Origin: Synechococcales cyanobacterium bin59.metabat.ball.084
Lineage (GTDB): Bacteria > Cyanobacteriota > Cyanobacteriia > Cyanobacteriales > Chamaesiphonaceae
Length of the DNA stretch: 40,926 nucleotides
Assembly: GCA_013297675.1 (NCBI GenBank)
Contig: JAAFHZ010000029.1
Span: forward strand, 1-40,926
Direction: 5' to 3'
In this document: one piece after another, positions 10,937 through 33,588 of the stretch
Numbering within the stretch: the stretch's first letter is position 1
Layout: each line of letters begins with the position of its first letter
Program-made: the position numbers and the translations under genes
Notes under the pieces: generated by a model
The model's database searches: none
The model's input: only the letters and a program-made list of their open reading frames with translations
What the model was told of the DNA's origin: nothing

Positions 10937-11322
10937 TTCTGCTGGATACTCACATTTTGATTTGGTGGATTGATGACAATCCAAAACTATCCCAACGTCA
11001 TCGACAAATTATTCAAGAACGACAAGATGATGGGCTAGGTATTAGTATCTATTCATGTTGGGAAATAGCCAAACTGGTAGAATACGGTAAATTAGAGTTA
11101 AATTTCCCGATCGAAGACTGGATAGAAATCGCACTATCTCACCCAAATTTACAAGTGATCGATCTCACTATCCCAATTATTATTAAATCCACACAATTAC
11201 CAGGCTTTCATAAAGACCCAGCAGATCAAATTATTGTTGCAACCTCGATAATTTTAGGAATTCCTTTATTAACAGCAGATGCAAAAATCATTGCCTACAC
11301 TGATGCCGTAACACTTAGTTAG
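10933..11322 (+). CDS. PIN-domain ribonuclease toxin (VapC-like)
   Basis: A 129-residue PIN-domain RNase of the COG3744 type. The acidic metal site is present: D5 in L-L-D-T-H, E44 in the S-x-W-E-I-A motif, and D90 in K-D-P-A-D-Q-I-I-V-A, with D107 in T-A-D near the end. Such toxins cleave tRNA or rRNA when freed from the antitoxin. The ATG at 10933 overlaps the antitoxin stop; an in-frame TTG 15 bases upstream is an unlikely start. The toxin appears intact although its surroundings are decayed. Confidence 0.85.
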   Translation: MILLDTHILIWWIDDNPKLSQRHRQIIQERQDDGLGISIYSCWEIAKLVEYGKLELNFPIEDWIEIALSHPNLQVIDLTIPIIIKSTQLPGFHKDPADQIIVATSIILGIPLLTADAKIIAYTDAVTLS

Positions 11323-11423
11323 ATCGATCTTCTACCCCAAAACATCCAATATTCGCCGAAACTTAAAGCCGCGCGAAACTAGCAGTGCCCCAGTAACGAG
11401 ATAAAACCATGAGTGTTCAACTC

Positions 11424-11465
11424 GCCAAGTTTTGCAAGCGATCAATCACTCTATGGAAAATTGAG
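11424..11465 (+). repeat. Degenerate direct repeat matching 10602-10638
   Basis: The stretch GCCAAGTTTTGCAAGCGATC and what follows matches 10602-10638 (GCGAAATTTTACAAGCGATC...) with one 4-5 base gap. Both copies can be read as A-K-F-x-K-R-S-I. One lies in the DUF4062 remnant and the other about 100 bp after the PIN toxin, so the two flank the toxin-antitoxin pair. The rest of the 399-bp gap 11323-11721 holds only a hairpin at 11521-11563 and A+T-rich sequence leading to recQ. Confidence 0.5.
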
Positions 11466-11520
11466 CGACGGCAAACTATATAAGGATTGATTTATTTTCC
11501 ACGGAAAACTAGACAATAAA

Positions 11521-11563
11521 AAAGAGAACCGACGACTGGCCGTGTTTCGTCTCGGTTCTCTTT
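11521..11563. terminator. Hairpin, probably bidirectional terminator
   Basis: A 12-bp perfect stem, AAAGAGAACCGA paired with TCGGTTCTCTTT. The 19-nt loop can extend the stem after one bulged C. It is preceded by an A run and followed by T-rich sequence, so it can terminate in either direction. It lies about 200 bp after the toxin and 158 bp before recQ. Confidence 0.6.
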
Positions 11564-11721
11564 CTTATTTACTCCTCACACTCCTTCAATATACCGATAT
11601 GCAACTGGAATGTCAAGCATTTAGAGTAAGAATTTTTAAATATTATTAAAATTGGCGTTAAATATAGACTTCAACCAATTCGGCGAGAAATCTGTCGCAA
11701 GGCTCCCTAAAACCTCATAAT

Positions 11722-18514: not shown

Positions 18515-18548
18515 GGGGTTTCAGAGAATAAAGACACATGGGAAGACG

Positions 18549-19601
18549 TTAAGGATAGAAAGCTAGGGCTGGCAAGCCCAAAGTCTCCTCCCAGCCCATC
18601 ATCAAATTCAAACACTGCACTGCTTGCCCCGCTTGACCCTTGAGCAAATTATCGATCGCCGACATCACAATCACCCGACCAGTACGGGAATCTACCTCGA
18701 TCGAGATATAGCAAGCATTGGTGCCCAAAGCCCATTTAGTTTGGGGATAAGTACCGCTAGGTAACACCCGCACCCAAGGTGCAGCTCGGTAGGCCGATTG
18801 ATAAATGGTCATCAAGTCTTCTGCCACCAGCCTAGGATCACGCAAATTGGCATAGACCGTAGCCAAAATTCCCCGCACCATCGGCATCAAATGGGGCGTA
18901 AACTGCACCATAATGTCATGGCCAGCTACCTCCCCACAAATCCGCTCAATCTCGGGAGTATGGCGATGACCAGCCACGCTGTAGGCCGAGATCGAGTTAT
19001 CGGCTTCGGCTAACAACAAGTGAGTCTTGGCCTCCCTACCACCTCCAGAAGTACCAGACTTGGCATCAATCACAATGGTATTTTCTTGAATCAGGCCATT
19101 TTTCAGCAATGGGTAAATTGCCAACAAGCTAGCGGTAGGATAACAGCCGGGGCAACCAATCAACTGGGCATCTTTTAACTGGGTGCGATTAATTTCTGGT
19201 AGGCCGTATACTGCGCTCATGGCAATTTCTTTGTCTTGACGGGGTATCTTGTACCAATGGCTATAGATGTCAAGATTGTCAAAACGGTAGTCCGCCGAGA
19301 GATCTAAAACTTTGCAACCTAAAGCTAGTAGCTTGGGAGCTAGGTTACAAGCAATGCCATTTGGCAAAGACAAAAACACCACCTGACATCGACTGGCGAT
19401 GACGGCGGGTTCGATCGGTTCGATTTGTAAATTACAGATGTGCTTGAGATGAGGGTAAATATCCCCAATCATCTTGCCCGCGCTGCTATTTCCACCTAAA
19501 TAGGTGACTTCCACCGCAGGATGATCTTGCAGTAGCCGGATTAACTGCACGCCGCCGTATCCTGAAGCCCCAATAATGCCGATCGAAATGCGCTCACCCA
19601 T
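18549..19601 (-). CDS. argC: N-acetyl-gamma-glutamyl-phosphate reductase
   Basis: ArgC reduces N-acetylglutamyl phosphate to the semialdehyde with NADPH, the third step of arginine synthesis. The 350-residue protein has the N-terminal Rossmann G-A-S-G-Y-G-G (11-17), catalytic C153 in G-C-P-G-C-Y-P-T, and the G-H-R-H-T-P-E-I motif with the active-site histidine. It is first in a likely two-gene unit with the isoaspartyl peptidase. It is divergent from the next gene across 112 bp. Confidence 0.96.
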
Positions 19602-19713
19602 AGTTTTACGCGGCTTAGTAGCCGGGAAATGATGCAGATTGCTATTTATAGCACGGTGAGAGCAATTTATATAGATTAGAATCCTTATTTAAAAGCATCC
19701 ACCGCTACCTGTC

Positions 19714-20253
19714 ATGGACAACCCGCTCACTTCCCCTATCAACTCCCGGCAAATTCCACCGCCACCTAGCCAAATTCATCAAGCTGCTGCCAGCGAAAAA
19801 GGCGGGGCGCTCGTGGCCAAACTCAAAGGGCAATATCATCAACCAAATGCCGGTTTGGTATTGCATATGCTACAAGAATTACAATATTTACTGAATAGCT
19901 GGCAAAAAGAAATTTTAGAATTAGAGCAAAATATTGCGGTGATACGCGGGTCTGGACCGATTGTAGCGGGTTGGTTAGAAGCTGATGTCAATGATCCTAC
20001 TCCTAGCATGGGGGCACTAGAAACAATCCCCGAAATTCTCCAGCAACAAAGCTTAGAATATCAACTCTGTAGCCTCGATGAAAGCGGCGAAATTGCCGCC
20101 CGCGATTGTCCTGAACCCGAAATGTTTGGTATCAGCAAAGCCCTGGCTCGGCATCAACAATTACGCCAACTGATCGATCGAAAGTCTAACCTAGAAGCCA
20201 ACATCAAACATACCTTGGCCACCTTAGTACATTTGCGGATGGAAATTTACTGA
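19714..20253 (+). CDS. Unrecognised 179-residue soluble protein
   Basis: Not recognised. The N-terminal 30 residues are Pro/Ser-rich and probably disordered. The rest is helical, with a likely coiled coil near 45-75 (L-Q-E-L-Q-Y-L-L-N-S-W-Q-K-E-I-L-E-L-E) and another at 140-175. There are two Cys (C118 and C136), no signal peptide and no membrane span. It is divergent from argC with no operon partner upstream; the next gene follows after 91 bp. It resembles the many cyanobacterial conserved proteins of unknown function, but I cannot name a family. Confidence 0.7.
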   Translation: MDNPLTSPINSRQIPPPPSQIHQAAASEKGGALVAKLKGQYHQPNAGLVLHMLQELQYLLNSWQKEILELEQNIAVIRGSGPIVAGWLEADVNDPTPSMGALETIPEILQQQSLEYQLCSLDESGEIAARDCPEPEMFGISKALARHQQLRQLIDRKSNLEANIKHTLATLVHLRMEIY

Positions 20254-20344
20254 AATTTTAGATGGGGCTTTGGGATTGAGCAATGGTAGATATAGAATTA
20301 AGAACGAAATATTTTTTGTCCACCAATAATTCTAGAATCCAGTT

Positions 20345-20884
20345 ATGAAATTCCAAATAGTTAGTTGCGGAATGTTGGCCGCTATATTCTGTAACTTCTT
20401 ATCTGTCTCCCCAGCAGTGGCCGAAAAAAAGAATCCGGTGGTTACAGGCACTTCGGGTAGCGGAGCATTGGCAGAATACAAACGCTGTAGTGTACCAGCC
20501 GCAACTCTACCTAAAGACTGTGATGATACTCGTAAGCAAATCCTGCGGATCAACTCCGTAGTCAAGCTCTATCAAAACGGCAACAAAGCTGTGCTAGCCG
20601 ATTTAATTGCGGGGGCGATCGACAGTGATACTTACCTGGGCGAAACCTATGGAGCCTTCTTTGCCGGGGTAGCGGTTAAAAGTCCTAGTGAGTTTTTACA
20701 AGCTGTAAGTCTCAAGAAAAAACCCGAAGACCGTGAAACTCTTTACCGAATCACCGCCTTATCTTTTTCTGATGGTCAAGTACCTAAAGTAAATAGAAGC
20801 CTGCAAAAAATGGCTGCCCAAAAATCCGATAAACTTAGCACCTTTGCCCAAGAATTTTTGACAGAAATCAAAAATTCTCGCTAG
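20345..20884 (+). CDS. Secreted protein of unknown function
   Basis: A 179-residue protein with a clear signal peptide: M-K-F-Q then a hydrophobic core, with probable cleavage after A-V-A (residue 26). The mature part is hydrophilic and mostly helical; two Cys (about residues 42 and 53) could form a disulfide. The family is not recognised. It is probably periplasmic or lumenal. It is followed by the structured leader of the hybrid kinase. Confidence 0.7.
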   Translation: MKFQIVSCGMLAAIFCNFLSVSPAVAEKKNPVVTGTSGSGALAEYKRCSVPAATLPKDCDDTRKQILRINSVVKLYQNGNKAVLADLIAGAIDSDTYLGETYGAFFAGVAVKSPSEFLQAVSLKKKPEDRETLYRITALSFSDGQVPKVNRSLQKMAAQKSDKLSTFAQEFLTEIKNSR

Positions 20885-20940
20885 CACTGCCTCAATGACG
20901 ACTGTAAGGCTGGTAGTGGTAGTTTCACGGAGTTTGCGCT

Positions 20941-21019
20941 GTTAGATAGCCGCCCAAATTTGGGCACAATACTCTCACGGGGCGAAATATATCTCCACGC
21001 GAATTTACTGCTATCTAAC
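20941..21019 (+). promoter_or_regulatory. Structured leader directly before the hybrid kinase start
   Basis: GTTAGATAGC (20941-20950) and GCTATCTAAC (21010-21019) form a perfect 10-bp inverted repeat whose right arm touches the ATG at 21020. Between the arms lies the 14-base palindrome GCCCAAATTTGGGC (20952-20965), able to fold as a 5-bp stem with a 4-nt loop. As RNA the 79 nt would close into a branched structure covering the ribosome site. No known riboswitch class is recognised. Confidence 0.5.
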
Positions 21020-22858
21020 ATGCTCGAACTCTTTATCGTCATTCCGATCGTGGCGGCTGCCGCACTTTATGGCTTTGTTACCTATAAAAAAGAGCAGTCC
21101 CTCAGATTAAAGCGCGAACAGCTCATCAAAAACTTGCAGGAAGCTGAACGCAGCTTAATGCAAACCAATAAACGTTTAGAAAAAACCATCCAAGAACGAG
21201 TCGATGATGTCCAAAGAGTCAACGATCGACTGTGTGATGAGGTGCGAGAAAGAAAGCTAATGGAAAGTTTGTTAGCTCACAACGTGAAGATTGCCGATGA
21301 AGCTAGAGAGAGAGCAGAAGAAGCCAATCGTACCAAAAGTGAATTTTTGGCCAATATGAGCCACGAATTGCGCACGCCTCTCAATGCGATTATTGGTTAC
21401 AGTGAAATATTAGAAGAAGATGCGATCGATCAAGGGCAAGATTCTCTGATCAATGATATTAAAAAAATCCGTAATGCTGGTAAACATCTGCTGAGTCTAA
21501 TCAATGATGTTTTAGACTTGGCTAAAATAGAATCTGGCAAAGTAGACTTGTATCTTGAGTCTTTTGATATTAATAAGCTGGTGAAAGATGTCGTAGACAC
21601 TCTGCAACCAACTTGCGAAAAAAACAATAATAAAATGGTGGTAAACTGTCCAGAGAATATCGGACTAATGCGCAGTGATTTCACCAAAGTTCGCCAAAGT
21701 TTATTTAACCTTTTGAGTAATGCTAGCAAGTTCACTCACAATGGAGAAGTAAAGCTCACAGTTAAACAAGAAGTATTTAAAGCAAAAACTGGCGAGGCTC
21801 AAAAATTTGTACATTTTCTGGTGCAAGATACTGGAATTGGGATGAAGCCAGAACACTGCAAAAAATTGTTTCAAGCTTTTTCGCAGGCAGATAGTTCCAC
21901 GACTCGCAAGTATGGTGGTACCGGTTTAGGATTAGCGATTACTCAGAACTTTATTAATATGATGGGTGGTGAAGTAGCCGTAGAAAGTGAATATGGAGTT
22001 GGCTCAACTTTTACTTTGAAGCTCCCCCAAATCGCTCGTCAAATTATAAGTAAAGCCGAAGAGTTTGATGAATCAACGGCTACAGTTAGTTCTATTTTAG
22101 TTAATCCATTACATACCAAAACTGTTTTAGTGATTGATGATAATCATCACGATCGAAAGTTCTTACATCGTTATTTAAGTAACGAAGGATACAATGTTGT
22201 CATGGCAGTTAATGGCAAACAGGGTTTACAAATGGCCAAAGAAATTGTGCCAGATATGATTACCCTCGATGTGATGATGCCAGAAATGGACGGCTGGGAA
22301 ACTTTGGTAGCTTTGAAAAATGATCCTTTCTTAGTCAATATTCCAGTGGTAATGAGCAGCATTATTGAAGATCGCCACCTGGCTCAAACACTTGGAGCAG
22401 TGGATTACTTATCTAAACCAGTAGATAAAGAAAGATTACTAAAAGTAGTTGATAAACACATTGCCAGATCAGCTAGGGGGCCAATTTTGGTCATTGAAGA
22501 TGATCCTGATACCCTAGAAATTACTTGTGATTTGTTAGTACAGGCTGGTTGGTTAATTCAGGCTGCTGAAAACTCTACAGAGGCGCTAGAAATCATCGAG
22601 AAATCTCCACCCATGCTAATTTTGCTCGACCTAATGATGCCAGAAATGGATGGATTTGAAGTGATCAAAAAGTTGCGCTATCATCCGCAGTGGCAATTAA
22701 TTCCAATCATTGTAATTACATCAGTAGAGCTATCTACCAGTGAATATGCTCAGTTGTCAAAGCAAGTACAAAATATTTTCCAAAAGGGTAAATATGAATT
22801 GCAAGATCTGTTAAATGAAGTAAATGAAGTCGTCAGTTCTTCGTTGGTTCCTATCTAA
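21020..22858 (+). CDS. Membrane-anchored hybrid histidine kinase with two receiver domains
   Basis: About 612 residues from the ATG at 21020. One N-terminal membrane span (about 5-21) is followed by a long coiled coil (25-108), then HisKA with phospho-acceptor H115 (N-M-S-H-E-L-R-T-P). The HATPase domain shows the N box, G1 (D-T-G-I-G-M) and G2 (G-G-T-G-L-G-L-A-I). Two receivers follow, with phospho-Asp D417 and D537, both in L-D-(V/L)-M-M-P-E-M-D-G. No periplasmic sensor is present, so the signal is probably sensed by partners or the coiled coil. An in-frame TTG 60 bases upstream lies in the structured leader and is less likely. A receiver-only gene follows after 43 bp. Confidence 0.9.
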   Translation: MLELFIVIPIVAAAALYGFVTYKKEQSLRLKREQLIKNLQEAERSLMQTNKRLEKTIQERVDDVQRVNDRLCDEVRERKLMESLLAHNVKIADEARERAEEANRTKSEFLANMSHELRTPLNAIIGYSEILEEDAIDQGQDSLINDIKKIRNAGKHLLSLINDVLDLAKIESGKVDLYLESFDINKLVKDVVDTLQPTCEKNNNKMVVNCPENIGLMRSDFTKVRQSLFNLLSNASKFTHNGEVKLTVKQEVFKAKTGEAQKFVHFLVQDTGIGMKPEHCKKLFQAFSQADSSTTRKYGGTGLGLAITQNFINMMGGEVAVESEYGVGSTFTLKLPQIARQIISKAEEFDESTATVSSILVNPLHTKTVLVIDDNHHDRKFLHRYLSNEGYNVVMAVNGKQGLQMAKEIVPDMITLDVMMPEMDGWETLVALKNDPFLVNIPVVMSSIIEDRHLAQTLGAVDYLSKPVDKERLLKVVDKHIARSARGPILVIEDDPDTLEITCDLLVQAGWLIQAAENSTEALEIIEKSPPMLILLDLMMPEMDGFEVIKKLRYHPQWQLIPIIVITSVELSTSEYAQLSKQVQNIFQKGKYELQDLLNEVNEVVSSSLVPI

Positions 22859-22901
22859 ATTTCACCCAAATTGGATTCTTTTCTCTTAATATTTGCTAGC
22901 C

Positions 22902-23273
22902 ATGACTAAAATTTTAATCGTCGAAGATAATGAAATGAACCTAGATATGCTGTCGCGCCGATTGGCTCGCAAGGGTTATCAGGTGATTACGGCTATGGAT
23001 GGAGCTGAAGGTTTACAGATGGCCAACTATGAGATGCCAGACCTGATTTTGATGGATATGAGTTTGCCCGGAATGGATGGCTGGGAGGCCACTCGTCACC
23101 TCAAGGCTAGCCCCGACACCAACACCATTCCAGTAATTGCTCTTACTGCTCACGCCATGGTGGGTGATCGAGAAAAAGCCATGGAAGCTGGCTGCAATGA
23201 TTACGACACCAAGCCTGTGGAAATCGATCGGCTCATCAGCAAAATGGAAAACTTGCTGAATCCTTACGGCTAA
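22902..23273 (+). CDS. Single-domain response regulator (CheY-like)
   Basis: A 123-residue receiver domain without an output domain. The acidic pocket is E8-D9 (I-V-E-D-N), the phospho-acceptor is D52 (L-M-D-M-S-L-P-G-M-D-G), T82 lies in A-L-T-A-H, and the conserved Lys is in T-K-P-V. The N-terminal E-D-N-E-M-N motif is typical of receivers that act with hybrid kinases. It probably exchanges phosphate with the kinase encoded 43 bp upstream. The ATG at 22902 is preferred over an in-frame TTG 9 bases before it. Confidence 0.92.
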   Translation: MTKILIVEDNEMNLDMLSRRLARKGYQVITAMDGAEGLQMANYEMPDLILMDMSLPGMDGWEATRHLKASPDTNTIPVIALTAHAMVGDREKAMEAGCNDYDTKPVEIDRLISKMENLLNPYG

Positions 23274-23301
23274 GTAACCAATTCAGTTTTTTACTCAATT
23301 A

Positions 23302-23814
23302 CTAGTTGGGCGGTTGTTTTTTAGCTCGATTTTTTTGGTAAATTTCATATAGTCGCTTTCCTACCTCGATCGGGATTCCGGCTACTGGCACCAATATTTT
23401 CACGGCTTCGGAGCTACCGGCAAAGACAATGCTTAATAAATTTTGGCGATGTTGAGTTTTTTGAGAACCTTGAGGTGTAATCTCCGTAAATTCAACGTCA
23501 ATAATTTTATCTATACTAGATCGATCAATATCAGACTGTTTACTTAGTAGATCTGTAATGATTTCTTGCAGTTCTTGGATAGCTGGCTCTTGATTGCTTT
23601 TTTGGTGTATCTTTGCCAATGCATCAAAAGCCAAACTACGAATAACTGGGTCTGAATCTGAGCTACTTACTTTCATCAAATTATCTATGGCATAATCATC
23701 ACCAAGTTCACCTAGTTGAAAGATGATGGTTTTGCGCACGGTGGACGATTGTTCGCGGATAAGCTGGGCACAAAAAAATTCAACAATTTTCTGCTGCTGA
23801 GAATTTGTGGCCAT
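23302..23814 (-). CDS. Small HEAT-repeat protein, last gene of the protease operon
   Basis: A 170-residue protein. Residues about 8-75 form two HEAT repeats (I-F-Q-L-G-E-L-G-D-D-Y-A-I-D-N-L-M-K-V; then D-P-V-I-R-S-L-A-F-D-A-L-A-K-I). A polar linker (75-115) follows, then a hydrophobic/amphipathic segment at 120-160 (L-L-S-I-V-F-A-G and V-K-I-L-V-P-V-A-G-I-P-I-E) and a basic tail. It starts 4 bp after the subtilase stop, with GGAG inside the end of that gene, so the two are translationally coupled. It may be a partner, inhibitor or substrate of the protease; none of these is shown by the sequence. Confidence 0.75.
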   Translation of the reverse strand: MATNSQQQKIVEFFCAQLIREQSSTVRKTIIFQLGELGDDYAIDNLMKVSSSDSDPVIRSLAFDALAKIHQKSNQEPAIQELQEIITDLLSKQSDIDRSSIDKIIDVEFTEITPQGSQKTQHRQNLLSIVFAGSSEAVKILVPVAGIPIEVGKRLYEIYQKNRAKKQPPN

Positions 23815-23818
23815 CCTG

Positions 23819-26800
23819 TTAGTCTCCGGCTGATAAATGAGCGGCGGCTTTACCCAAAGCAGTGACAGCTCCTTCTCTCACGTAGGTATCAGGATCTGTT
23901 TGCACCAACTTCATTAAAGCAGAAATACTATCATCATCAGCTAAGTCCCCTAAAGCTAAAGCACTGTTTCGCCTAATATTGAGATCGACATTATTAACTA
24001 GCTGTAACAGAGGTATTTTTATAGTTGTCGGTGAAATCTTTGCTAGTGCGGTCGCTACGCTAGCACCAACATCTGGATCTGGATCAGCAAGGCTTTCCAA
24101 CAGAGCTGGAATTGAGCTGGTGGTTGGCAGGTTTGCTAAGGCGATCGCCGTAGTTTGACGTACTGTTGCCACGGGGTCTTGAAGTTTAGTAGACAGCGGC
24201 GTAACAGAGTCGGGATCGCCAATATTACCTAGTGCTTCTGAAGCGCATTCTCTCACTTGAGCATTGGAGTCTTCGAGAGCATCCAGCAAAGAATCGATCG
24301 CGCCAATATCACCAATTTTGCCTAGAGATCGAGCAGCATTAGTGCGCACACCTGCATCCGGATTTTTTAGAGCTTTAAGTAATGAAGGTACTGCCATTTT
24401 GCCAAGTTTTGCCAGCGATCGAGCCGCCTCGGCTTGAATTTGAGGATTGGCATCTTCTAAAGCTATTAATAATGTATCCAGAATGGTTGATTGACCTGAC
24501 ATTATTTTTTCGCTGCCCACTATTTTAATTAGATTAATAATTTTCAATCCTCCACCAGAAGCGACAATAGCAAAGTCTTGATTACCTTTTTCTGGCAGTG
24601 GAAGGTCGTATGCAGTTACGGTAATACTCCATATTCCAACTATTGAAGGATTAACAATAATTATTCCTTCGACATTGTTGATCAAGTCATGCTCCTTTCT
24701 ATTGTTAAAATCGTTGCCGAGATAATATTTTCCATCAGGAGCTGTTAATCGAATACAAAGATTGTTAATTAGTGTTTCACCAGGCAAATCAGTATAAGCC
24801 ATAATGATTCTTATGGGCACATCTAATTCGGTGATTTCTACTTTGTACTCATATGCTTCACCTAAAGATAATCCATCTAATTGATCAATAAACTCTACTC
24901 GTGTTGGAAAAACTGGACTTAAAGAATTTGCCAATGTTACTCTACCCCACCCCTGCTCATTATCGACCCAACGAGAGGAGGAGGGATTACGATATCTGTA
25001 CTCTATATACCGAGCAGAATGGATGATGCTAGCTTTTAGTAAAGCTCCACTGGGATTAATATATGCAGTTTTTTCTTTCAGATATTGGCGAACTAATGCG
25101 ACTCCACCAGCAACTAATGGTGTTGCCATAGATGACCCACTCATATACATGTAGTCATTGCTATAAGGTGCGCTGCCAGAAGATTTATCTGAGATTTGTG
25201 AAGATCTTGTCGAAAGCACAAAAGTACCAGGAGCTACAACATCTGGTTTGTAACGTCCATCTTCACATGGACCACGACTGCTGAATGCCGCAATATCATC
25301 GATCGAGTCGGTTGTTATGTCATTACAAAAAGGCTCATAGATAAACCCATGCTTACTACCATAAGTTTCTTGAAACTCTGAGATGCGATAATTTTCAGAA
25401 GCACCAACGGTTAAACAATTTTTGGCTGTTCCTGGAGGACAAATACTCTTCAACGAAATTCCTGTATCGTCTTGAGAATGTTTTCCGCTGTTGCCAGCAG
25501 CAACCACAACTAAAAAATCCTTGTGTTCCCACATGAAATCATCAATGCTATAGCACCTGTCTGTATATTTGGATGCTAGGTCAGTACTTTCATTACCCCA
25601 AGAGTTAGAATGAATTTTTGCTCCAGCTCCATTCTGGTATGCGCAACTAAAAAGATCTTTAAGTTCAGAAGGAATACCATAGTATCCTGATACTTCTTTC
25701 TTACCGAATCTTCTTATTCCTAAGTCGTTGTATCTAAGATTTTGTTCAAGTGCTTGGAAAATCAATTGTGCTTCTGGTGCAATACCACGAATAGATGTGT
25801 TGGTCTCATTTGCGCATACTCCTGTGCCAATGGCGCTACCAACAACATGAGTTCCATGACCAGTTTCTCTGTCTGCTGCCCCACAATCTTCGCCTATATT
25901 ATCTATATACTTCTGATTTCGATTAGTACCCCTGATTGGATAACTCTTGATTTCAAATACTTGCGATCTTAAATCTTGATGTAATGTGTCCTTTTTACCT
26001 GTATCTAATCCACCATCAGCGATCGCAATCAATTCACCGGTTCCTCGCAAATCCAGCAATGGTAACATGTCATAATTTGATAAATCAGGAACTATCCCTT
26101 GCGTAACCACTGGCACGGCTATATTATTGAAAGGAGTAGGAATTGACTCTTCTTCAATTGATTGTAAACCTGCTTGAGTAGTAAGTATCTGTACTGCTTG
26201 CTGGATATTGGAATGTTCAAATAGATCTACTAATAATTTGTTATCACCTGCTTTGTCCAGAACTTCTATCCCATTTTCTTGCAGAGTAACTGCCGCTTGA
26301 TCGCGGTAGTTTTGATTGAAGAATATAGCAATTAAGATACCAAGAGAAGAATTATCTGTACTCTCTGTATTGGCACGTAAAGGAGCAACAAGTTCGTCTG
26401 AAGATAGATGTTTGATTGCTTCTACTACTTCTTTAGGGAGAGAGGGTTTATAATCTTGGATATTATTTACCTCCTCAAATTTCAGGATTTTGTCTGTGCT
26501 ACTACTGTCGGCTGAAATAGCCATGAGACCACCACCCAATGCCCGCACAATTTCTGCACCAACAGCTTGGATCTTCTCTCTAATGGTGTGATCGATCGGT
26601 CTATTAAATTTAACAACCTTAATCATATTTCCCTCACCTCGTTCTACTGATTTTTTGGAGACAGTTTTAGTGTATGAAGAGATCCGAATAATTGGATAGG
26701 ATTCCTTCAGACTAACAGCAAATTTGCTTGATGTCATAATAAGACAAAATGCTGGATATGCTTGGAGTAAAAGTACTTCTGAGCCACAAAAACCAAGCTC

Positions 26801-27385
26801 TCTCTCTTGACAACCAACTTGGTATATACCTAGTGAAATTTCTTGCTCAGCTAATTTTGACATGATATTTTTCTCTGCCAAATCAGCTAAGTCTTGAATA
26901 TCTTCAGAATATCTCATTGCATTTTGTTGGAATTTTTTAACTGCAATTATATCTTCTTCTATTTCTCCTCTTTCTACCATGAATTGTAATGCAGCATAAA
27001 TTTCACTGTCATACTCTGGAATCAACAAGCAAAATCTCTGAAGTTTTCTCCACTCTTGATTTCTTATTTCACGAATATTCTCAGAAATGATTTCTCTTCT
27101 AGGATGATTTCGTAGAAGCAAATCTAGCTCATCAATTAACTCGCAAGATGATTTAAACAATGTTTTATAGCCATTGATATCATCAATACTTATCCTTTCT
27201 TGATTTATTACTGGGTTTAGCTTACTCACATAATCTAGTTCTTTAATAGAAAAATCAACTGTTATTCTCAAATCTTCTTGAATTGACAAATCAAGTTGTT
27301 TCTCTAAACTAGCTTTAATCTTATCTAAGTTAGATTTTGTTTTGAAATAGCTAAGTTGAATCAATGATATTTTGGTGTATCGCAT
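23819..27385 (-). CDS. Subtilisin-like (S8) protease with C-terminal HEAT repeats, no signal peptide
   Basis: 1188 residues. Residues 1-180 are helical and unrecognised. About 254-312 and 347-412 look like two prodomain (I9-like) modules. The S8 catalytic domain spans about 440-800: D457 (A-D-G-G-L-D), H510 (G-H-G-T-H), oxyanion N632 (A-A-G-N-S-G) and S752 (G-S-S-M-A-T-P). A beta-rich domain follows (820-945), like the one after KP-43-type subtilases (L-T-A-P-D-G...G-N-D...N-N-V-E). Residues 968-1183 hold about seven HEAT repeats close in style to the bilin-lyase repeats. There is no signal peptide or membrane span, so it is probably cytoplasmic, which is unusual for S8. It is cotranscribed after the kinase and receiver (24-bp gap). 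Confidence 0.92.
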   Translation of the reverse strand: MRYTKISLIQLSYFKTKSNLDKIKASLEKQLDLSIQEDLRITVDFSIKELDYVSKLNPVINQERISIDDINGYKTLFKSSCELIDELDLLLRNHPRREIISENIREIRNQEWRKLQRFCLLIPEYDSEIYAALQFMVERGEIEEDIIAVKKFQQNAMRYSEDIQDLADLAEKNIMSKLAEQEISLGIYQVGCQERELGFCGSEVLLLQAYPAFCLIMTSSKFAVSLKESYPIIRISSYTKTVSKKSVERGEGNMIKVVKFNRPIDHTIREKIQAVGAEIVRALGGGLMAISADSSSTDKILKFEEVNNIQDYKPSLPKEVVEAIKHLSSDELVAPLRANTESTDNSSLGILIAIFFNQNYRDQAAVTLQENGIEVLDKAGDNKLLVDLFEHSNIQQAVQILTTQAGLQSIEEESIPTPFNNIAVPVVTQGIVPDLSNYDMLPLLDLRGTGELIAIADGGLDTGKKDTLHQDLRSQVFEIKSYPIRGTNRNQKYIDNIGEDCGAADRETGHGTHVVGSAIGTGVCANETNTSIRGIAPEAQLIFQALEQNLRYNDLGIRRFGKKEVSGYYGIPSELKDLFSCAYQNGAGAKIHSNSWGNESTDLASKYTDRCYSIDDFMWEHKDFLVVVAAGNSGKHSQDDTGISLKSICPPGTAKNCLTVGASENYRISEFQETYGSKHGFIYEPFCNDITTDSIDDIAAFSSRGPCEDGRYKPDVVAPGTFVLSTRSSQISDKSSGSAPYSNDYMYMSGSSMATPLVAGGVALVRQYLKEKTAYINPSGALLKASIIHSARYIEYRYRNPSSSRWVDNEQGWGRVTLANSLSPVFPTRVEFIDQLDGLSLGEAYEYKVEITELDVPIRIIMAYTDLPGETLINNLCIRLTAPDGKYYLGNDFNNRKEHDLINNVEGIIIVNPSIVGIWSITVTAYDLPLPEKGNQDFAIVASGGGLKIINLIKIVGSEKIMSGQSTILDTLLIALEDANPQIQAEAARSLAKLGKMAVPSLLKALKNPDAGVRTNAARSLGKIGDIGAIDSLLDALEDSNAQVRECASEALGNIGDPDSVTPLSTKLQDPVATVRQTTAIALANLPTTSSIPALLESLADPDPDVGASVATALAKISPTTIKIPLLQLVNNVDLNIRRNSALALGDLADDDSISALMKLVQTDPDTYVREGAVTALGKAAAHLSAGD

Positions 27386-27409
27386 ACAATTAGTTAATTA
27401 GACTATATA

Positions 27410-27811
27410 TTAATGCTTAGAAATCAGTATTTGCCGAACTTTTTCTACTAAATTATAAGGAGTATACTCTTCTTTTTGTAAAACCAACTCCCTTATTTCA
27501 ATCGGCAAATTATTAGTAGAAACATTAGTGAAAATTACAATTGGAAAAATATGATCAATTGACACCTCTTTGATTTTTTCTAGAAAAAATAATCCTGTTC
27601 TTAGGCCATTGTCGGTATCTTGATTTTCAAATATTTTTCCATATGGCATCATAACGTCTAATATTAACAAATCAATGGATTTCAATCTGTCAAGAATAAA
27701 ATCCATCGCCTTATCTACATTGTCCTGATGAATAACCTCATATCCAAAGTATTTTAGTTCCTCAATATAGGTTTTAACATATCTGCGATCATCATCCACC
27801 AAAAGAATCAT
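27410..27811 (-). CDS. Receiver-only response regulator paired with the GAF kinase
   Basis: A 133-residue receiver domain. The acidic residues are D6-D7-D8, the phospho-acceptor is D52 (L-I-L-D-V-M-M-P-Y-G), and the switch Thr is in I-F-T-N-V-S. The loop after the phospho-acceptor carries an insert of about 15 residues (K-I-F-E-N-Q-D-T-D-N-G-L-R-T-G). The usual K-P-F/Y end motif is replaced by Q-K-E-E-Y-T-P-Y-N-L. It has no output domain. Its ATG overlaps the kinase stop by 4 bases, and the subtilase gene follows after 24 bp, so the protease is the likely output. Confidence 0.88.
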   Translation of the reverse strand: MILLVDDDRRYVKTYIEELKYFGYEVIHQDNVDKAMDFILDRLKSIDLLILDVMMPYGKIFENQDTDNGLRTGLFFLEKIKEVSIDHIFPIVIFTNVSTNNLPIEIRELVLQKEEYTPYNLVEKVRQILISKH

Positions 27812-29616
27812 AAGAACCTCCTATTTGTTGACATGGTATCACATGACATTATGATCTGAAACTCTGTTTGGAAATTATTAGCAGGCTTGTTTCTAGAGAC
27901 AATTAACTCTCCACCAAGCTTTGTTATTAAATCTCTGGAAACACTCAGCCCCATGCCAGAACCAATTACTATCGACTTTACTTTCTCACTTCTATAACCT
28001 CGATGAAATATTTGTTCTTTTTCATGTTCCTCAATACCAATGCCATTGTCTTTTACTTTTATAATCAATTTTCCGTGATTAGTTTTAGTTATCGATATAT
28101 TTACTCGGAATTCATCAGGATCATCCTTAGCATATTTGATTGCATTCATCAAAAGATTGTATATGACTTGATTGAGCTTTGCCCTATCTGTTCTTATTTT
28201 TAGGTACTTAATACTATCAGTTGGGAAGTGGTATTCAATACCATTCAATGGAAAGCCTTTGTCTACCAGTAGCGGTTTGAGCTGTCTTGCTACTTTGGTT
28301 ATTTCGTTCCAAACTACTACGTCTTCAATTTGCAGATATTGAGAGCTACTAGCACCCATCATCACTTCTAATTGCTGAACTTGATAGAATAGAATGTCAC
28401 AATCGGTAAGCATATCATCAAGTTTGGCTTCTATTTCATCTTCCCTCAATCTATCTCTTCTTCTGATTAAGATGTCGAGATGATTTCTAATGCCTACGAT
28501 CGGATTTCTTATTTCATGAGTAACCTGATCTACTAAGCCAGCCTTAATTTTTTCTAATGCTTGAATTGCATGATTTACAAAACTCTCTAAAATCCTCACA
28601 TCTCTTTCATAAATAAATTTTCGATACAGCCTTCGATATCCCGCTTCTAGGGTTCCTATTACTTGATTATTTGACCCTTCAATCATGGGCATAAAAACCC
28701 GAATCAATAAGTCATGGTTGAATTCTTTAGCAAGAATAGGATCTAAACGAATATCATTTCTTTTAGGAACTTCTATATTTCCTTCTCGTACAATACAAGC
28801 TTGAATATCATCACTATCTAAGCGATGCACTGCCTCTTTTATGAATTTTTGTCTTTTCGCTGGTGATATTCCCTCAACATACTTTGTTTCAATGACCCCT
28901 TTGGTGAGGTTAACCAGCGAAATGTTCACGACTTCAAAATCAAGAATTTCAATAATGCTGTTTATAACAGTCTCAATGATTTGGTCAAATTCTTTTCCAC
29001 TCTCTGTAATTTCGTTTTCTTTAACTCTTAATTCAGCTAACTTTTGATCGAATTCAATTGCATCAATCCGGATAGCGGCATAACGTGCCAAAGGCAAAAG
29101 CACCTCCTCGTCTTCTTTAGAGAAAGCATGCAACTTAGAGCTTTCAATATTGAGCACTCCGATACGCTTTACCCCATTATTAGTAATCATCACCCTTTCA
29201 TCATCAGCATCCGACCCACTGTGATATTCAGATTCAATCCTCACTGGGATGTTCTCCAAAACGATCGGTACAGTTATTTCCGACCTCATACTCTCCCAAT
29301 GTTTAATGTAAATATCGCACCACGGTGAACTAGCAATATCCTTAACTATCTGTGGTTGATTGTCTTTCAGCGCCTTGCCCATGACACCTTTACCCCAATC
29401 TATTCCAGAATCAAACGACTCCAGATATGGTTCTGAATGTACAACATTAATTTTGCCGGTACGATAATCGAGTCTGGCAATTGAACCATTGCTTGCCTTA
29501 ACTAACTTTAGCGCACCATCGAGCAAAATCTCCAGGATCGTAGTGGTATCCTGGGCGCTGGCCATATCAATAATGATCTTAACCAAATCTCGAAATGGTT
29601 GACTCTGCTGTTCCAT
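27808..29616 (-). CDS. Cytosolic GAF-domain sensor histidine kinase
   Basis: About 602 residues from the ATG at 29616 (an in-frame GTG at 29655 is possible). Two GAF-like sensor domains lie at about 10-190 and 205-350; the first keeps a G-K-G-V-M-G-K-A segment and V-L-N-I-E-S. HisKA has H367 in T-H-E-I-R-N-P. The ATPase domain has N-Q-V-I-Y-N-L-L-M-N-A-I-K-Y, D-N-G-I-G-I and G-S-G-M-G-L-S-V. No membrane span is seen. No Cys in the GAF domains clearly matches a bilin site, so phytochrome-like light sensing is not supported. It heads the kinase-receiver-protease operon and is divergent from trmB across 196 bp. Confidence 0.9.
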   Translation of the reverse strand: MEQQSQPFRDLVKIIIDMASAQDTTTILEILLDGALKLVKASNGSIARLDYRTGKINVVHSEPYLESFDSGIDWGKGVMGKALKDNQPQIVKDIASSPWCDIYIKHWESMRSEITVPIVLENIPVRIESEYHSGSDADDERVMITNNGVKRIGVLNIESSKLHAFSKEDEEVLLPLARYAAIRIDAIEFDQKLAELRVKENEITESGKEFDQIIETVINSIIEILDFEVVNISLVNLTKGVIETKYVEGISPAKRQKFIKEAVHRLDSDDIQACIVREGNIEVPKRNDIRLDPILAKEFNHDLLIRVFMPMIEGSNNQVIGTLEAGYRRLYRKFIYERDVRILESFVNHAIQALEKIKAGLVDQVTHEIRNPIVGIRNHLDILIRRRDRLREDEIEAKLDDMLTDCDILFYQVQQLEVMMGASSSQYLQIEDVVVWNEITKVARQLKPLLVDKGFPLNGIEYHFPTDSIKYLKIRTDRAKLNQVIYNLLMNAIKYAKDDPDEFRVNISITKTNHGKLIIKVKDNGIGIEEHEKEQIFHRGYRSEKVKSIVIGSGMGLSVSRDLITKLGGELIVSRNKPANNFQTEFQIIMSCDTMSTNRRFL

Positions 29617-29812
29617 GGTTGAGAAATAGAATGAGACTCCTAGAATCCAAGTCACTAGGTCACATTCTAACCTACTCGGCTATCGACAATATGGAGATGT
29701 TAACAAATTGTGAGATCATTGCCGATTATGGCTCTAACACTGAGTATAGATCTCGGTATAATAGGCTCCTCAGTACCATGAGACTGAGCAAGCCCAAAAT
29801 CATCAAATCACC

Positions 29813-30451
29813 TTGGCCAGAATCAAAGTCCGTCAACACGTTAACCCCCTTGCCAACAAGTATCAAGAGTCGATCGATTGGCCAGATTGGTCGCAGATCT
29901 ATGCTGACCTGAGCTTACCTTTACATATCGATATTGGCTGTGCCTGGGGTCGCTTTCCGCTCAAAATGGCGATCGCTCACCCCCACTGGAATTTTTTAGG
30001 CATCGAAATTCGCCAGCCCATTATTGCCGAAGCCAACCGCCTTCGCGATGAGCAAGGTCTTACCAACTTGCACTATGCCTTTGCCAATATCAATGTTTCT
30101 CTGGGTAGCTTGCTGGCCTCCTTGCCTCCACTAGTCTGTGGGCGAGTAAGTATTCAATATCCCGATCCTTGTTTTAAAACCCGTCATGCCAAGCGGCGGG
30201 TGGTGCAGCCGGAGCTAGTCGAGACCTTAGCCACTTATCTGTTGCCAAATACCGAGATATTTTTGCAGTCGGATCTGGAATGGGTGGCGCAGGAAATGGT
30301 CGATCGATTTACCGCCAACCCCGTATTTCAACGTCAAAGCCCCGATTGGTTGCCAGAAAACCCCTTGGGCATTGCTACTGAGCGAGAAGTTGCCACTCTC
30401 AAACGAGGTTTGCCAGTGTATCGGAGTATTTTGCATACTGTTTGTTTGTGA
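29813..30451 (+). CDS. trmB: tRNA (guanine-46-N7)-methyltransferase
   Basis: A 212-residue SAM-dependent methyltransferase that makes m7G46 in tRNA. Motif I is H-I-D-I-G-C-A-W-G-R-F, the acidic SAM contact is G-I-E-I-R, and the catalytic region is Y-P-D-P-C-F-K-T-R-H-A-K-R-R, the cyanobacterial version of the P-D-P-W-x-K-x-R-H motif. The start is a TTG that gives M-A-R-I-K-V-R-Q-H-V-N-P-L, the family's standard N-terminus in cyanobacteria; no ATG fits. The next gene follows after 41 bp. Confidence 0.93.
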   Translation: MARIKVRQHVNPLANKYQESIDWPDWSQIYADLSLPLHIDIGCAWGRFPLKMAIAHPHWNFLGIEIRQPIIAEANRLRDEQGLTNLHYAFANINVSLGSLLASLPPLVCGRVSIQYPDPCFKTRHAKRRVVQPELVETLATYLLPNTEIFLQSDLEWVAQEMVDRFTANPVFQRQSPDWLPENPLGIATEREVATLKRGLPVYRSILHTVCL

Positions 30452-30492
30452 TATCTTGAGCGGAGAACTTTATCATCGGTATCGATCGAACC

Positions 30493-30969
30493 ATGGCTAC
30501 ACTGCGCACAATACTTATCGGAATGCTACTGTGCCTAACAGCATGGGTCACGCCAGCCAGCGCCGCTCTGCAAAACCACAGCCATGCTGATCTCAAAGGC
30601 CAAGATTTTTCTAACACCAATTTAGTAGGGGGAGTATTTCTATCTGCCGAAATGCATGATGCTAACTTTAGCAACACCGATTTAACCGGGGCAATTTTCA
30701 CCAAAGGGGTTTTGCTGCGGGCAAACCTCCAAGGCGCTGATCTCACCAACTCTTTGGTAGACCAAGCAACCTTAGATGAAGCAGATTTAACCAACGCCAT
30801 CTTGACCGGAGCCACCATGACCCGTACCCGCTTTTTTGGTACCAAAGTTACTGGCGCAGATTTTACCGATGCCTTAATCGATCGATCGCAAGTAAAACTA
30901 CTCTGCACCGTAGCCGCAGGCACCAACCCCAAGACCGGCGTAGATACCAAAGAAAGCTTGGGTTGCTAA
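30493..30969 (+). CDS. Secreted (lumenal) pentapeptide-repeat protein
   Basis: 158 residues with a signal peptide ending in T-P-A-S-A (cleavage near residue 25). About 16 pentapeptide repeats of A-(D/N)-L/F-x-x type follow (for example A-D-L-K-G, A-N-F-S-N, A-D-L-T-N), folding as a right-handed quadrilateral beta helix. A short C-terminal piece with two Cys (C-T-V...L-G-C) can cap the helix by a disulfide. Similar proteins occur in the thylakoid lumen; no enzymatic activity is implied. It is first of three tightly spaced genes (1 and 4 bp gaps). Confidence 0.88.
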   Translation: MATLRTILIGMLLCLTAWVTPASAALQNHSHADLKGQDFSNTNLVGGVFLSAEMHDANFSNTDLTGAIFTKGVLLRANLQGADLTNSLVDQATLDEADLTNAILTGATMTRTRFFGTKVTGADFTDALIDRSQVKLLCTVAAGTNPKTGVDTKESLGC

Positions 30970-30970
30970 G

Positions 30971-31189
30971 ATGATCAATACTTTACTGCGTGTCACCATC
31001 ATCTCGGTAGCTTTATCGGTGGCTATTAAGTTTGGAGCACCATTGCTAGAAATTCCCGCCAACAACACAACTGCTACAATTGGAGTGCTTTTGCCAGTTT
31101 TGCTCATTGCAATTGTTCTCGGTTGGCAGCAAAACAAACAAAATGCTGCGGCGGCGCATCTTGAAAAAAGTATCGAAATAGAGGATTAG
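30971..31189 (+). CDS. Small membrane protein, unknown function
   Basis: 72 residues with two hydrophobic segments (about 5-25 and 35-52), with P-A-N-N-T-T-A between them, and a charged, Ala-rich C-terminal tail (A-A-A-A-H-L-E-K-S-I-E-I-E-D). It starts 1 base after the pentapeptide gene and ends 4 bases before the AI-2E-family gene, so it is cotranslated with both. Not recognised. Confidence 0.78.
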   Translation: MINTLLRVTIISVALSVAIKFGAPLLEIPANNTTATIGVLLPVLLIAIVLGWQQNKQNAAAAHLEKSIEIED

Positions 31190-31193
31190 CAAC

Positions 31194-32366
31194 GTGCAGT
31201 TTGGTCAGTGGCTTGGTTTGGCGGTTTTAATCACCAGTATTTATGTGATTTGGCAGATCCGCCAGTTATTATTGATGGCCTTTGCGGCGATCGTTTTAGC
31301 GACGGCTCTTAATCAATTAGCCCGACTGCTGCGCGATCGGTTTAAGCTCTCCCGCCAATGGTCACTGGGCGGATCGCTGCTGATATTTTTAATTACCGTG
31401 GTAGGTTTTGTGTGGTCGATCGTGCCTTCTTTGGTCAAGCAAATGCAAGAAATTGGCACCACCAAGCTACCCAAGGTTTTAGCTTTAGTTCAAAACTCTA
31501 AAGGCGCAATAGAACAGTATCTACCTGGGGTAGATATCCCCGATTTACCGACATTACAAGAGCAAGCCAAGCCGCTCTTAAATTCTTTGTTAGGTCAATC
31601 TCTCTCGATTTTTTCGGGTTCTTTGGGTGCTATCCTCAACCTGCTATTGCTGCTGGTGTTGACTATTATGCTGCTGGTGCAGCCCCACGCCTACCGCAAT
31701 GTTTTTGTGATCATGTTTCCGCAGTTTTATCGGCGCAGAGTGATCGAAATTTTAGATGAGTGCGAAGTGTCTTTGGGCAAATGGATGGTGGGAGCAATCA
31801 TCGGCATGGTGGCCGTAGCGATCATGTCCAGCGCCGGATTGTATGCACTAGGAGTACCAGCGCCGCTAGCACAGGGCGTATTGGCCGGATTGCTGAATTT
31901 CATTCCCAATTTAGGGCCAACTCTCAGTATGGTGCTGCCCATGGGCATTGCTTTGCTCGATAGTCCCTGGAAATCTCTTTGGGTCTTTGTCTTGTACTTT
32001 GTGGTTCAACAAATCGAGAGCAGCTTTTTGACTCCATACATTATGTCAAAGCAAGTCTCGCTGCTGCCAGCGTTGACTCTATTAGCACAGGTGTTTTTTG
32101 CGAGTTTCTTTGGCTTTGCTGGCTTGGTATTGGCTTTACCATTAAGCGTCGTCACCAAGATTTGGATCAATGCGGTGCTGATCGAAGACGTATTAACTCA
32201 CTGGCGCAAGCGCCCCAGCCAAGAGCACCTCACAGAAGAGCCATTAATTCTCGATCCTTGGGACCCGGAGACTGCTTTATTAAACCTAACTCCGGCTCCC
32301 GCTGGTCTACCTCCTACTAGCTTCCCAGATATGCCTCCAGCACCTGAGGATCATTCTGTACCTTAG
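31194..32366 (+). CDS. AI-2E/PerM-family membrane transporter
   Basis: A 390-residue polytopic membrane protein of the AI-2E (UPF0118, PerM) family. There are two or three N-terminal spans, an extracytoplasmic segment (about 75-140), and a C-terminal group of helices with the family's conserved G-x-x-N-x-I-P-N-L-G-P and Q-x-x-x-x-x-x-L-x-P-x-I patterns. The family exports small molecules or exchanges ions; the substrate is not predictable here. The GTG start at 31194 has GAGG 9 bases before it. The last 50 bp overlap the end of the minus-strand livG gene. Confidence 0.88.
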   Translation: MQFGQWLGLAVLITSIYVIWQIRQLLLMAFAAIVLATALNQLARLLRDRFKLSRQWSLGGSLLIFLITVVGFVWSIVPSLVKQMQEIGTTKLPKVLALVQNSKGAIEQYLPGVDIPDLPTLQEQAKPLLNSLLGQSLSIFSGSLGAILNLLLLLVLTIMLLVQPHAYRNVFVIMFPQFYRRRVIEILDECEVSLGKWMVGAIIGMVAVAIMSSAGLYALGVPAPLAQGVLAGLLNFIPNLGPTLSMVLPMGIALLDSPWKSLWVFVLYFVVQQIESSFLTPYIMSKQVSLLPALTLLAQVFFASFFGFAGLVLALPLSVVTKIWINAVLIEDVLTHWRKRPSQEHLTEEPLILDPWDPETALLNLTPAPAGLPPTSFPDMPPAPEDHSVP

Positions 32367-33069
32367 TTGGTGGACCATCTACTAAGTTACTGCCTTCGGC
32401 TAATACCCACACTCGATCGCACAGAGACATAATTACATCCATGTTGTGCTCGATCACCAAAAAAGACATGCCATCTTTACGCCAGCGCTGAATGTGCCCA
32501 CAAATATCATCAATCAACCGAGGGTTAACGCCCGCCGCCGGTTCGTCCAGCAAAATTAGCTTAGGGTCGCTCATCAACGCCCGCCCCATTTCTAGTAACT
32601 TGCGCTGACCACCCGAAAGACCACCGGCAAAGTCGGCAGCTTTATGATCCATGCCAATATCAGTCAAAATGGTCATGGCTTTTTCTTTGAGCAGCTTCTG
32701 ATCTTTGGCCACTTGGGGCATCCAAGCCTGCCACATTTTTTCCCCGGTCTGATCTTGGGCACCCAGCAGCATATTTTCTAGTACAGATAAGCGCGACAGC
32801 GCCTTAGCCACCTGAAATGTCCGCACCATTCCCAAGCGAGCAATACGATGGGGTGGGAGCTTATGAATAGGCTGACCGTTAAATAGGACTTGACCTCGAT
32901 CGGGCACAATAAAGTTAGAAAGCAAGTTAAAAAATGTGGTTTTACCCGCACCGTTAGGGCCAATCAACCCGGTAATGCTACCGGCTGGCACGGTGATACT
33001 AGCTTGATTTACGGCCTTAATGCTGCCAAAGCTTTTACACAAATTTTCTGCTCTTAGAAGATCGGTCAC
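32317..33069 (-). CDS. LivG/NatA-type ABC transporter ATPase (branched-chain/neutral amino acids)
   Basis: A 250-residue ATPase of the LivG class, the nucleotide-binding subunit of high-affinity amino-acid uptake (NatA in cyanobacteria). Walker A is G-P-N-G-A-G-K-T-T (37-45), the signature L-S-G-G-Q (151-155), Walker B L-I-L-L-D-E-P (171-177), and the switch H is in I-E-H-N-M. The LivG-specific M-V-R-T-F-Q-V segment follows Walker A. No permease or binding-protein gene is adjacent, as is usual for scattered cyanobacterial Nat genes. Residues 89-136 are duplicated as DNA at 34362-34505. UrtD (urea) is an alternative but less likely. Confidence 0.88.
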   Translation of the reverse strand: MTDLLRAENLCKSFGSIKAVNQASITVPAGSITGLIGPNGAGKTTFFNLLSNFIVPDRGQVLFNGQPIHKLPPHRIARLGMVRTFQVAKALSRLSVLENMLLGAQDQTGEKMWQAWMPQVAKDQKLLKEKAMTILTDIGMDHKAADFAGGLSGGQRKLLEMGRALMSDPKLILLDEPAAGVNPRLIDDICGHIQRWRKDGMSFLVIEHNMDVIMSLCDRVWVLAEGSNLVDGPPTKVQNDPQVLEAYLGS

Positions 33070-33588
33070 GGATTTTTTACTCCTATTGTTTGCATGGCTG
33101 GCACAGCGACCCGCTAAGACTTTAGGGTATTTTACCTTGGTGGGGAGCTATTGCAGAGCCTGTTGATCAAATAGGGCTTTGCCCCCGAAGCCGAAGTATC
33201 TGAATAGATATTGGGAACAATAGACTGTTAAGTAGGTATGATAAAACGAAAGAAGAATGCATGTATCTATGCACTTTAAGCAGTATTGACTGCAAAGTAT
33301 TGCTGGGAAAGGCTTGAATGCATTAAGCCTCTCTGTGGTTTATTCATATTCTTACCGCTTTTATCCTGTAAGTCTTACTTATCAAGCATTTTGACCTTAA
33401 ATAACGAAACTTAGTCTTAAACAGATGCCTAAGTCCTTAAACTGAGGTTGTATAATGTTGATGGTGTCAAGATGATGTTTATCTATTAGGCAAATGCATC
33501 TATTTAAAAGTGCATAAATAAACGCATCAATCTTTCAAAGTGACTAAATTTATAAAAGCAGCCTTAACCACTAAGGTACCGGTAAAAT
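33070..33588. other. 519-bp non-coding stretch upstream of the small insertion genes
   Basis: No convincing gene. It is A+T-rich, with repeated T-G-C-A-T words (around 33257-33274 and 33493-33525) and a TATAAT at 33451-33456 that could be the -10 of the downstream plus-strand genes; no good -35 precedes it. The left end must hold the livG promoter. It may be the boundary of an inserted segment. Confidence 0.5.

Follow-up and report, generated by a model that had tools for sequence, protein, structure and literature searches.

A histidine kinase–receiver–subtilase operon of a cyanobacterium and an N-terminal region apparently common to its alternative effectors

The stretch of DNA analyzed here (the window) comprises 40,926 nucleotides, positions 1 to 40,926 of contig JAAFHZ010000029.1 in the assembly GCA_013297675.1 of Synechococcales cyanobacterium bin59.metabat.ball.084, and it carries four open reading frames (ORFs) on the minus strand that encode a histidine kinase, a stand-alone receiver, a subtilase with C-terminal HEAT repeats, and a small HEAT protein (Table 1). 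A preliminary description had presented these genes as a tightly packed operon, and their coordinates and spacings agree with it: the kinase and receiver genes overlap by 4 bp, 24 bp separate the receiver gene from the subtilase gene, and 4 bp lie between the latter and the gene of the small HEAT protein. An alternative GTG start is open 39 bp upstream of the kinase ATG. A genome search showed that the whole operon occurs once more, in diverged form, on contig C191 of the same genome. This copy encodes a kinase (581 amino acids, aa), a receiver (136 aa), a subtilase (1006 aa), a separate HEAT protein (245 aa), and a small HEAT protein (168 aa), and the identities between both copies are 50% for the kinase, 45% for the receiver, 46% for the subtilase, and 45% for the small HEAT protein. 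As this second copy exists in the same genome, and as the kinase–receiver–subtilase order recurs in other genera, the arrangement is not a product of chance, and the four-gene operon is confirmed as real.

Table 1. Position of the operon, its genes, and the regions of their products in the window
Feature	Position	Strand	Basis
6.5-kb presence/absence unit: four genes and leader of the kinase gene	23274..29784	-	blastn against sister species G001
Histidine kinase gene; soluble GAF-containing histidine kinase, 602 aa from ATG	27808..29616 (start 29616)	-	Pfam GAF_2, HATPase_c, sub-threshold HisKA
Receiver gene; stand-alone receiver, 133 aa, phospho-acceptor D52	27410..27811 (start 27811)	-	Response_reg and conserved residues
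Subtilase-HEAT gene, 1188 aa; adaptor, pro-region, S8 subtilase, C-terminal domain, HEAT array	23819..27385 (start 27385)	-	Pfam, solved-structure match, family alignments
N-terminal adaptor region, residues 1-182	26840..27385	-	HMM of 9 subtilase N-termini and AlphaFold model
Pro-region, two mutually related units, inhibitor-like by eye, residues 180-425	26111..26848	-	hhalign
Peptidase_S8 catalytic domain, residues 448-814, D457 H510 N632 S752	24944..26044	-	Pfam 8e-43
C-terminal domain of 1wmd/SubHal subtilase type, residues 815-945	24551..24943	-	phmmer to 1wmd_A
HEAT array, residues 957-1188	23822..24517	-	HEAT_2 3.5e-41; separate gene in second operon copy
Small HEAT protein gene, 170 aa	23302..23814 (start 23814)	-	HEAT_2 5.5e-11

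Signaling pair and protease of the operon

The residues that characterize a two-component pair are present, namely the H-box histidine and ATP-site motifs of the kinase and the D-D-D-T/S-K set of the receiver. H367 and the ATP-site motifs are intact in 11/11 aligned kinases, and D6, D7, D52, T/S95, and K113 are intact in all of the 11 aligned receivers, with T95 in the receiver of the window; of the 12 loci described below, L038 was omitted from these alignments because it is identical to L036, and the first of the two G013 receivers was used. PADLOC returned only weak or partial matches for both proteins, to the candidate family M43B for the kinase, and to SduA and candidate families for the receiver. 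The SduA match is generic, as an unrelated hybrid kinase next to the operon matches SduA as well, over its receiver domain.

In the protease, the D-H-S triad and the oxyanion asparagine lie within the S8 domain, as is characteristic of peptidase family S8, and all four residues are intact in 9/9 aligned operon subtilases. The protease of the Nostoc genome NMS9 lacks about 45 catalytic-domain residues between conserved blocks and keeps the triad. Residues 445-935 match the solved structure 1wmd_A with an E-value of 5.6e-63. In the preceding pro-region, unit 2 (residues 252-318) and unit 3 (residues 344-425) are mutually related (hhalign probability 81, E 1.3e-5), and a first unit (residues 180-238) was considered as a further repeat and found no support by hhalign. 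Family alignments place the pro-region in front of the S8 domain in stand-alone subtilase relatives as well, and it is likely to block the active site if other subtilases are a guide. The preliminary description had regarded the subtilase as apparently cytoplasmic, and this location is indeed likely as judged from hydropathy: none of the nine operon subtilases has a hydrophobic N-terminus in a Kyte-Doolittle scan, in which the maximum of a 19-residue window within the first 70 residues was ≤1.0 in all nine. With PADLOC, the protease gave weak or partial matches to IetS and "subtilase".

Recurrence of the pair and exchange of its effectors

Twelve loci were read, all of them found through kinase or receiver queries. 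The kinase gene adjoins the receiver gene in 12/12, and a subtilase gene comes next in ten, which represent nine genomes and nine distinct sequences, since the genome of the window carries two of these operons. The view that the pair is tied to a subtilase and not to a DNA-binding output was thus borne out in ten of the 12 loci. The two remaining loci have other outputs, but with the same adaptor region, so that the possibility raised beforehand, of a pair that adjoins a different output gene, applies in part. In genome G013, where two tandem receivers follow one kinase (L013:9584-10449; the first receiver is shorter, with 126 aa, and ends before the second), the output is an nSTAND1 NTPase (1.8e-97). 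In genome G505, the receiver is followed by a free 270-aa adaptor protein and then by proteins with CHAT (3.5e-15) and Pepco (2.6e-16) domains, the latter of which we take to be linked to conflict systems.

The common region was recognized with a hidden Markov model (HMM) of the nine operon subtilase N-termini, which scored 64.1 bits with the 270-aa protein of G505 and 36.2 bits with the N-terminus of the G013 nSTAND1 protein, and the best of 500 shuffles of these two proteins reached 10.8 bits. With an earlier HMM built from five subtilases, the nSTAND1 protein scored 28.9 bits and the best of 200 shuffles 4.3 bits. The link between subtilase and nSTAND1 is seen by profile only. The alignment is centered on a W-x4-G motif, whose tryptophan is replaced by phenylalanine in the window protein, and AlphaFold models the region as all helical, with a mean predicted local distance difference test (pLDDT) value of 71; 10-residue means are 81-95 over residues 121-182 and 50-72 before residue 111. 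Scans of four adaptor-bearing proteins (P0003, P0010, P0023, and P0026) gave nothing above cut-off over the adaptor with Pfam, where sub-threshold matches lie near it (e.g., Exonuc_VII_L in P0023, 16.6 versus 35.9 bits), and no match to it with PADLOC. Profile comparison thus reveals one region common to three different effectors behind one signaling pair, and we infer that this is the place where the receiver acts.

We therefore lean towards a post-translational switch, in which the kinase–receiver pair would arm an effector through the adaptor, with an intracellular subtilase as the effector in the window. Stand-alone receivers can also be phosphate sinks, and the receiver might in principle serve as such a sink, or another output, and never contact the effector, with the operon ensuring nothing but co-expression. 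We consider this quite unlikely, since the adjacency of receiver and effector and the shared adaptor are kept across three effector types. It would be a still greater surprise if the kinase were incidental and the receiver a kinase-independent, nucleotide-responsive switch, as has been proposed in the relevant passages of PMC8195603 for receivers without histidine kinases in conflict systems: the kinase gene stands beside the receiver gene in every locus, and H-box and D52 are intact in all 11 aligned pairs. A switch operated by the kinase through the receiver remains the reading that we prefer.

The operon is patchily distributed. A scan of a collection that holds 84,980 species by its description, carried out with a sub-alignment of the kinase GAF domain and two short peptide patterns, matched 132 stretches, among which the four relatives were a Nostoc metagenome-assembled genome (MAG) and three Crocosphaera MAGs, and this count is a floor because so few patterns were used. 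All four loci have the kinase–receiver–subtilase order, and the proteins of two Crocosphaera loci (L036 and L038) are identical. With a receiver profile, 3/53 genomes of the Nostoc MAG's genus and 6/50 genomes of the family of one Crocosphaera MAG were positive, counts that include the four MAGs already found, and the five further loci are subtilase operons in G461, G480, G483, and G494 and the variant in G505. In the class to which the genome of the window belongs, the receiver is rare: it was found in 2/388 genomes at E ≤ 1e-12, namely this genome and G013, and the same two were returned among 60 relatives at 1e-8. A kinase GAF profile matched 2/368 genomes, again the window's own and, in addition, G316, where a multi-GAF protein that is cut at the contig end (L034:3477-4733) has the DIQA-containing type of GAF domain found in the kinase. 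Plasmids gave no kinase match at 1e-20, partial receiver matches to annotated response regulators or CheB in four records, and S8 matches in two records; the one that was read is an Azospirillum plasmid, on which genes for an oxidoreductase, a phosphodiesterase, an amidohydrolase, a transposase, and siderophores surround the S8 gene, with no kinase or receiver. Viral contigs yielded two partial receiver matches and nothing else from the operon queries.

Because the loci were found through kinase or receiver, their numbers are silent on how often the protease occurs alone. A subtilase query of the 388 class genomes (E ≤ 1e-40, with scoring limited to two candidates per genome) returned six places, which are the two operons of the window's genome and four stand-alone genes. 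These four subtilases lack the N-terminal adaptor, and their ORF lists contain no recognizable kinase–receiver pair; both adaptor-bearing places have kinase and receiver alongside. The objection that homologues might normally stand alone therefore holds for four of the six places and for subtilases without adaptor, whereas every adaptor-bearing subtilase found sits behind a kinase–receiver pair, an association that is biased because all but the two of the window's genome were found through that pair. One of the stand-alone genes, in G208 (L025 3920-15847), lies among genes that by eye encode TIR-domain, TIR-WD40, and caspase-like proteins, surroundings typical of conflict systems.

HEAT parts, gain or loss of the operon, and its surroundings

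Co-occurrence of all genes in the same order was confirmed for kinase, receiver, and subtilase, but not for the HEAT parts: only the two operons of the window's genome possess them, and the other eight of the ten subtilase operons have no HEAT gene, so that HEAT is neither a core component nor a defining part of the system. In the second copy, the HEAT repeats form a separate ORF (L012:8183-8920), whereas in the window they are part of the protease itself. The same genome encodes a 1183-aa NACHT-HEAT protein and an adjoining small HEAT protein (L014, contig C177 of G000, 7480-12405), which is a separate conflict-type pair; its NACHT domain scores 26.0 bits, just below the cut-off of 26.7. A C-terminal HMM of the two small HEAT proteins of the operons matches the small HEAT protein of this pair with 21.6 bits (best of 300 shuffles, 8.8), and part of the NACHT-HEAT array shares 41% identity with the HEAT array of the window. 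In our reading, the HEAT parts are a module that was borrowed within this lineage, and our guess is that they bind a target or partner.

Gain or loss of the operon can be seen in comparison with the sister species G001, in which the regions 18544-23273 (87.8%) and 29785-33086 (87.6%) align and 37 bp replace 6,511 bp of the window. As both flanks align with merely these 37 bp in between, the operon acts like a single unit of gain or loss. Direct or inverted repeats of 7-14 bp common to the 71-bp stretches at the two insertion ends were not found, and due to this lack of a terminal repeat we do not claim a transposon-like mechanism. At the site of the second operon, the right flank alone matches a G001 contig, and a clean empty site is therefore not claimed. 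Third-position GC is 0.26-0.33 in the operon genes of the window versus 0.36-0.54 in eight flanking genes, and it is 0.20-0.37 in the kinase, receiver, subtilase, and HEAT genes of the second operon.

Convergent with the operon, a hybrid histidine kinase and a DivK-like receiver are encoded on the plus strand (20960-23273), and both are conserved in G001, which has no operon. In the Nostoc MAG, 116 bp separate the kinase gene from an upstream 136-aa ORF of the phage-integrase family (L035:7755-8165, Pfam 1.7e-11), which may be what is left of the element that introduced the operon. The Crocosphaera MAGs have, by eye, a calcium-ATPase-like gene beyond the operon, adjoining it in L037, farther off in L036, and judged from ORF size only in L038. 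Upstream of the kinase gene of L037, at a distance of 264 bp, lies what looks by eye like an aminopeptidase gene ending in HEAT-like repeats. The MAGs may share an insertion site. The preliminary description had also suggested a search for nearby defense islands. PADLOC gave generic matches only among the ten flanking genes of the window, to SduA over the receiver domain of the hybrid kinase and to mad3 for an ABC ATPase, and the flanks of the other loci were inspected by eye; closeness to a defense island is unsupported.

With flanking genes that look housekeeping-like by eye, one may ask whether this is an ordinary stress-response operon, whose signaling pair triggers turnover of host proteins, such as phycobilisomes via the HEAT repeats, with no role in conflict. 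GAF kinases often sense metabolic cues, and the HEAT part matches the models of phycobilisome lyases and NblB (CpcE 74.8, CpcF 58.1, and NblB 52 bits). However, these scores are far below the curated cut-offs of 330, 220, and 300, and designed alphaRep HEAT proteins also match the HEAT part strongly, so that the similarity is generic and provides no support for phycobilisome targeting. The absence of HEAT genes from most of the subtilase operons, the patchy spread, and the exchange with nSTAND1 and CHAT effectors fit poorly with housekeeping turnover, and we regard an ordinary stress operon as unlikely.

A proposed phosphorelay switch and its relation to known systems

The post-translational switch that we favor would begin with the soluble GAF histidine kinase, which may sense a cytosolic cue and would phosphorylate the stand-alone receiver at D52. 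The receiver would then contact the helical adaptor at the effector N-terminus. In the window, the subtilase would be held inactive by its own pro-region until the contact of receiver and adaptor frees it to cut cytosolic proteins, and the HEAT array and the small HEAT protein could be a local add-on, perhaps for the recognition of targets or partners. Receiver-controlled proteolysis, as already envisaged in the preliminary description, is what we infer for the window, and in the related loci the same pair would drive an nSTAND1 NTPase or a CHAT peptidase via the same adaptor. The swapped effectors suggest a possible role in conflict or cell death, or perhaps in dormancy. That the operon belongs to a phosphorelay-gated conflict or cell-death family, in which one pair and one helical adaptor arm interchangeable subtilase, nSTAND1, and CHAT effectors, is a tentative proposal that we hold with somewhat less confidence than the switch itself.

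Several observations weigh against this interpretation. The kinase HisKA domain scores 22.7 bits (Pfam cut-off 26.9) and the Response_reg domain of the receiver 29.2 bits, just below its cut-off of 30.2; no Pfam inhibitor family matched the pro-region. Two of the three effector kinds are represented by one locus each. The adaptor HMM match of the nSTAND1 protein contains coiled-coil sequence and carries a bias of 9.8 bits (6.2 bits for the G505 protein), one shuffle passed the HMMER inclusion threshold (E 0.0078), and BLASTP detected no significant similarity of the subtilase to the nSTAND1 protein of G013 (E 1.5 with the window protein, 0.075 with its paralog). A Foldseek search of the adaptor model against the PDB produced 657 matches at E ≤ 10 and none at E ≤ 0.001. 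The small HEAT gene of the second operon has a host-like third-position GC of 0.485 (0.46-0.51 in three neighbors), and none of the ten flanking genes of the window had a convincing defense match in PADLOC.

If the proposal is correct, it links two-component signaling with modular bacterial conflict systems, two fields that have been mostly apart so far. The output of a two-component system would then be an immune-type effector protein, and not transcription or motility, and a drastic response could be triggered without a change in gene expression, which is an unfamiliar route in bacteria. The three genes would constitute a small, testable system with a free receiver whose phosphorylation should turn on a dedicated protease, and the same receiver contact is predicted to arm a STAND NTPase and a caspase-like peptidase. 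The adaptor would serve as a search handle for further effectors.

A histidine kinase–receiver–subtilase system was not described in the titles and abstracts of the open literature, among the matches listed. Regarding the S8 protease as a putative effector, the operon resembles the anti-phage system IetAS, which consists of a subtilase and an AAA ATPase. The IetS model matches the S8 part with 45.1 bits over about 100-200 catalytic-domain residues, and the IteS equivalog gives the protease 38.9 bits versus a cut-off of 900. The operon differs from IetAS in having no IetA-like ATPase, as none was found among the four genes with Pfam or among the ten flanking genes with PADLOC, where the mad3-matching ABC ATPase was the only ATPase match. 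Alkaline subtilases of the KP-43/SubHal type (PDB 1wmd, 5fax) are secreted enzymes, and they share the catalytic and C-terminal domains with residues 445-935 of the window protein. Unlike them, the operon subtilases have no hydrophobic leader and possess an N-terminal adaptor and a pro-region, they are encoded with a kinase–receiver pair, and the protein of the window has C-terminal HEAT repeats in addition. The response regulators CpdR and RssB act as adaptors for ClpXP proteolysis, and the proposed switch would be alike in that a response regulator controls proteolysis post-translationally, without DNA binding. Whereas CpdR and RssB use a general protease machine, the protease described here is a dedicated one from the same operon that is interchangeable with other effectors.

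In construction, the operon also resembles the NTP-dependent conflict systems of multicellular prokaryotes with VMAP/iSTAND components or effector-associated domains (EADs), which, in the parts of PMC7159879 and PMC8195603 that describe them, have modular effectors including peptidases and nSTAND1-type NTPases, small adaptor regions, and an occurrence in cyanobacteria. The domains of the alternative effectors belong to known conflict systems, and nSTAND1 is named among the conflict-system domains in PMC8195603. The sections of PMC7159879 on vWA-associated effectors report no histidine kinase among them. MoxR ATPases, vWA components, and VMAP/iSTAND proteins were absent from the four window genes by Pfam, and none was recognized when the relatives' ORF lists, which were not scanned as a whole, were inspected by eye. 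In the four adaptor-bearing proteins scanned, Pfam and PADLOC gave no EAD match over the adaptor above a cut-off, as far as their models represent the ten published EADs. What distinguishes the operon from the EAD and VMAP/iSTAND systems is its switch, a histidine kinase–receiver pair. In conclusion, the operon does not appear to belong to any of the conflict or defense systems tested, but its construction is that of a modular conflict system with a proposed phosphorelay as the switch.

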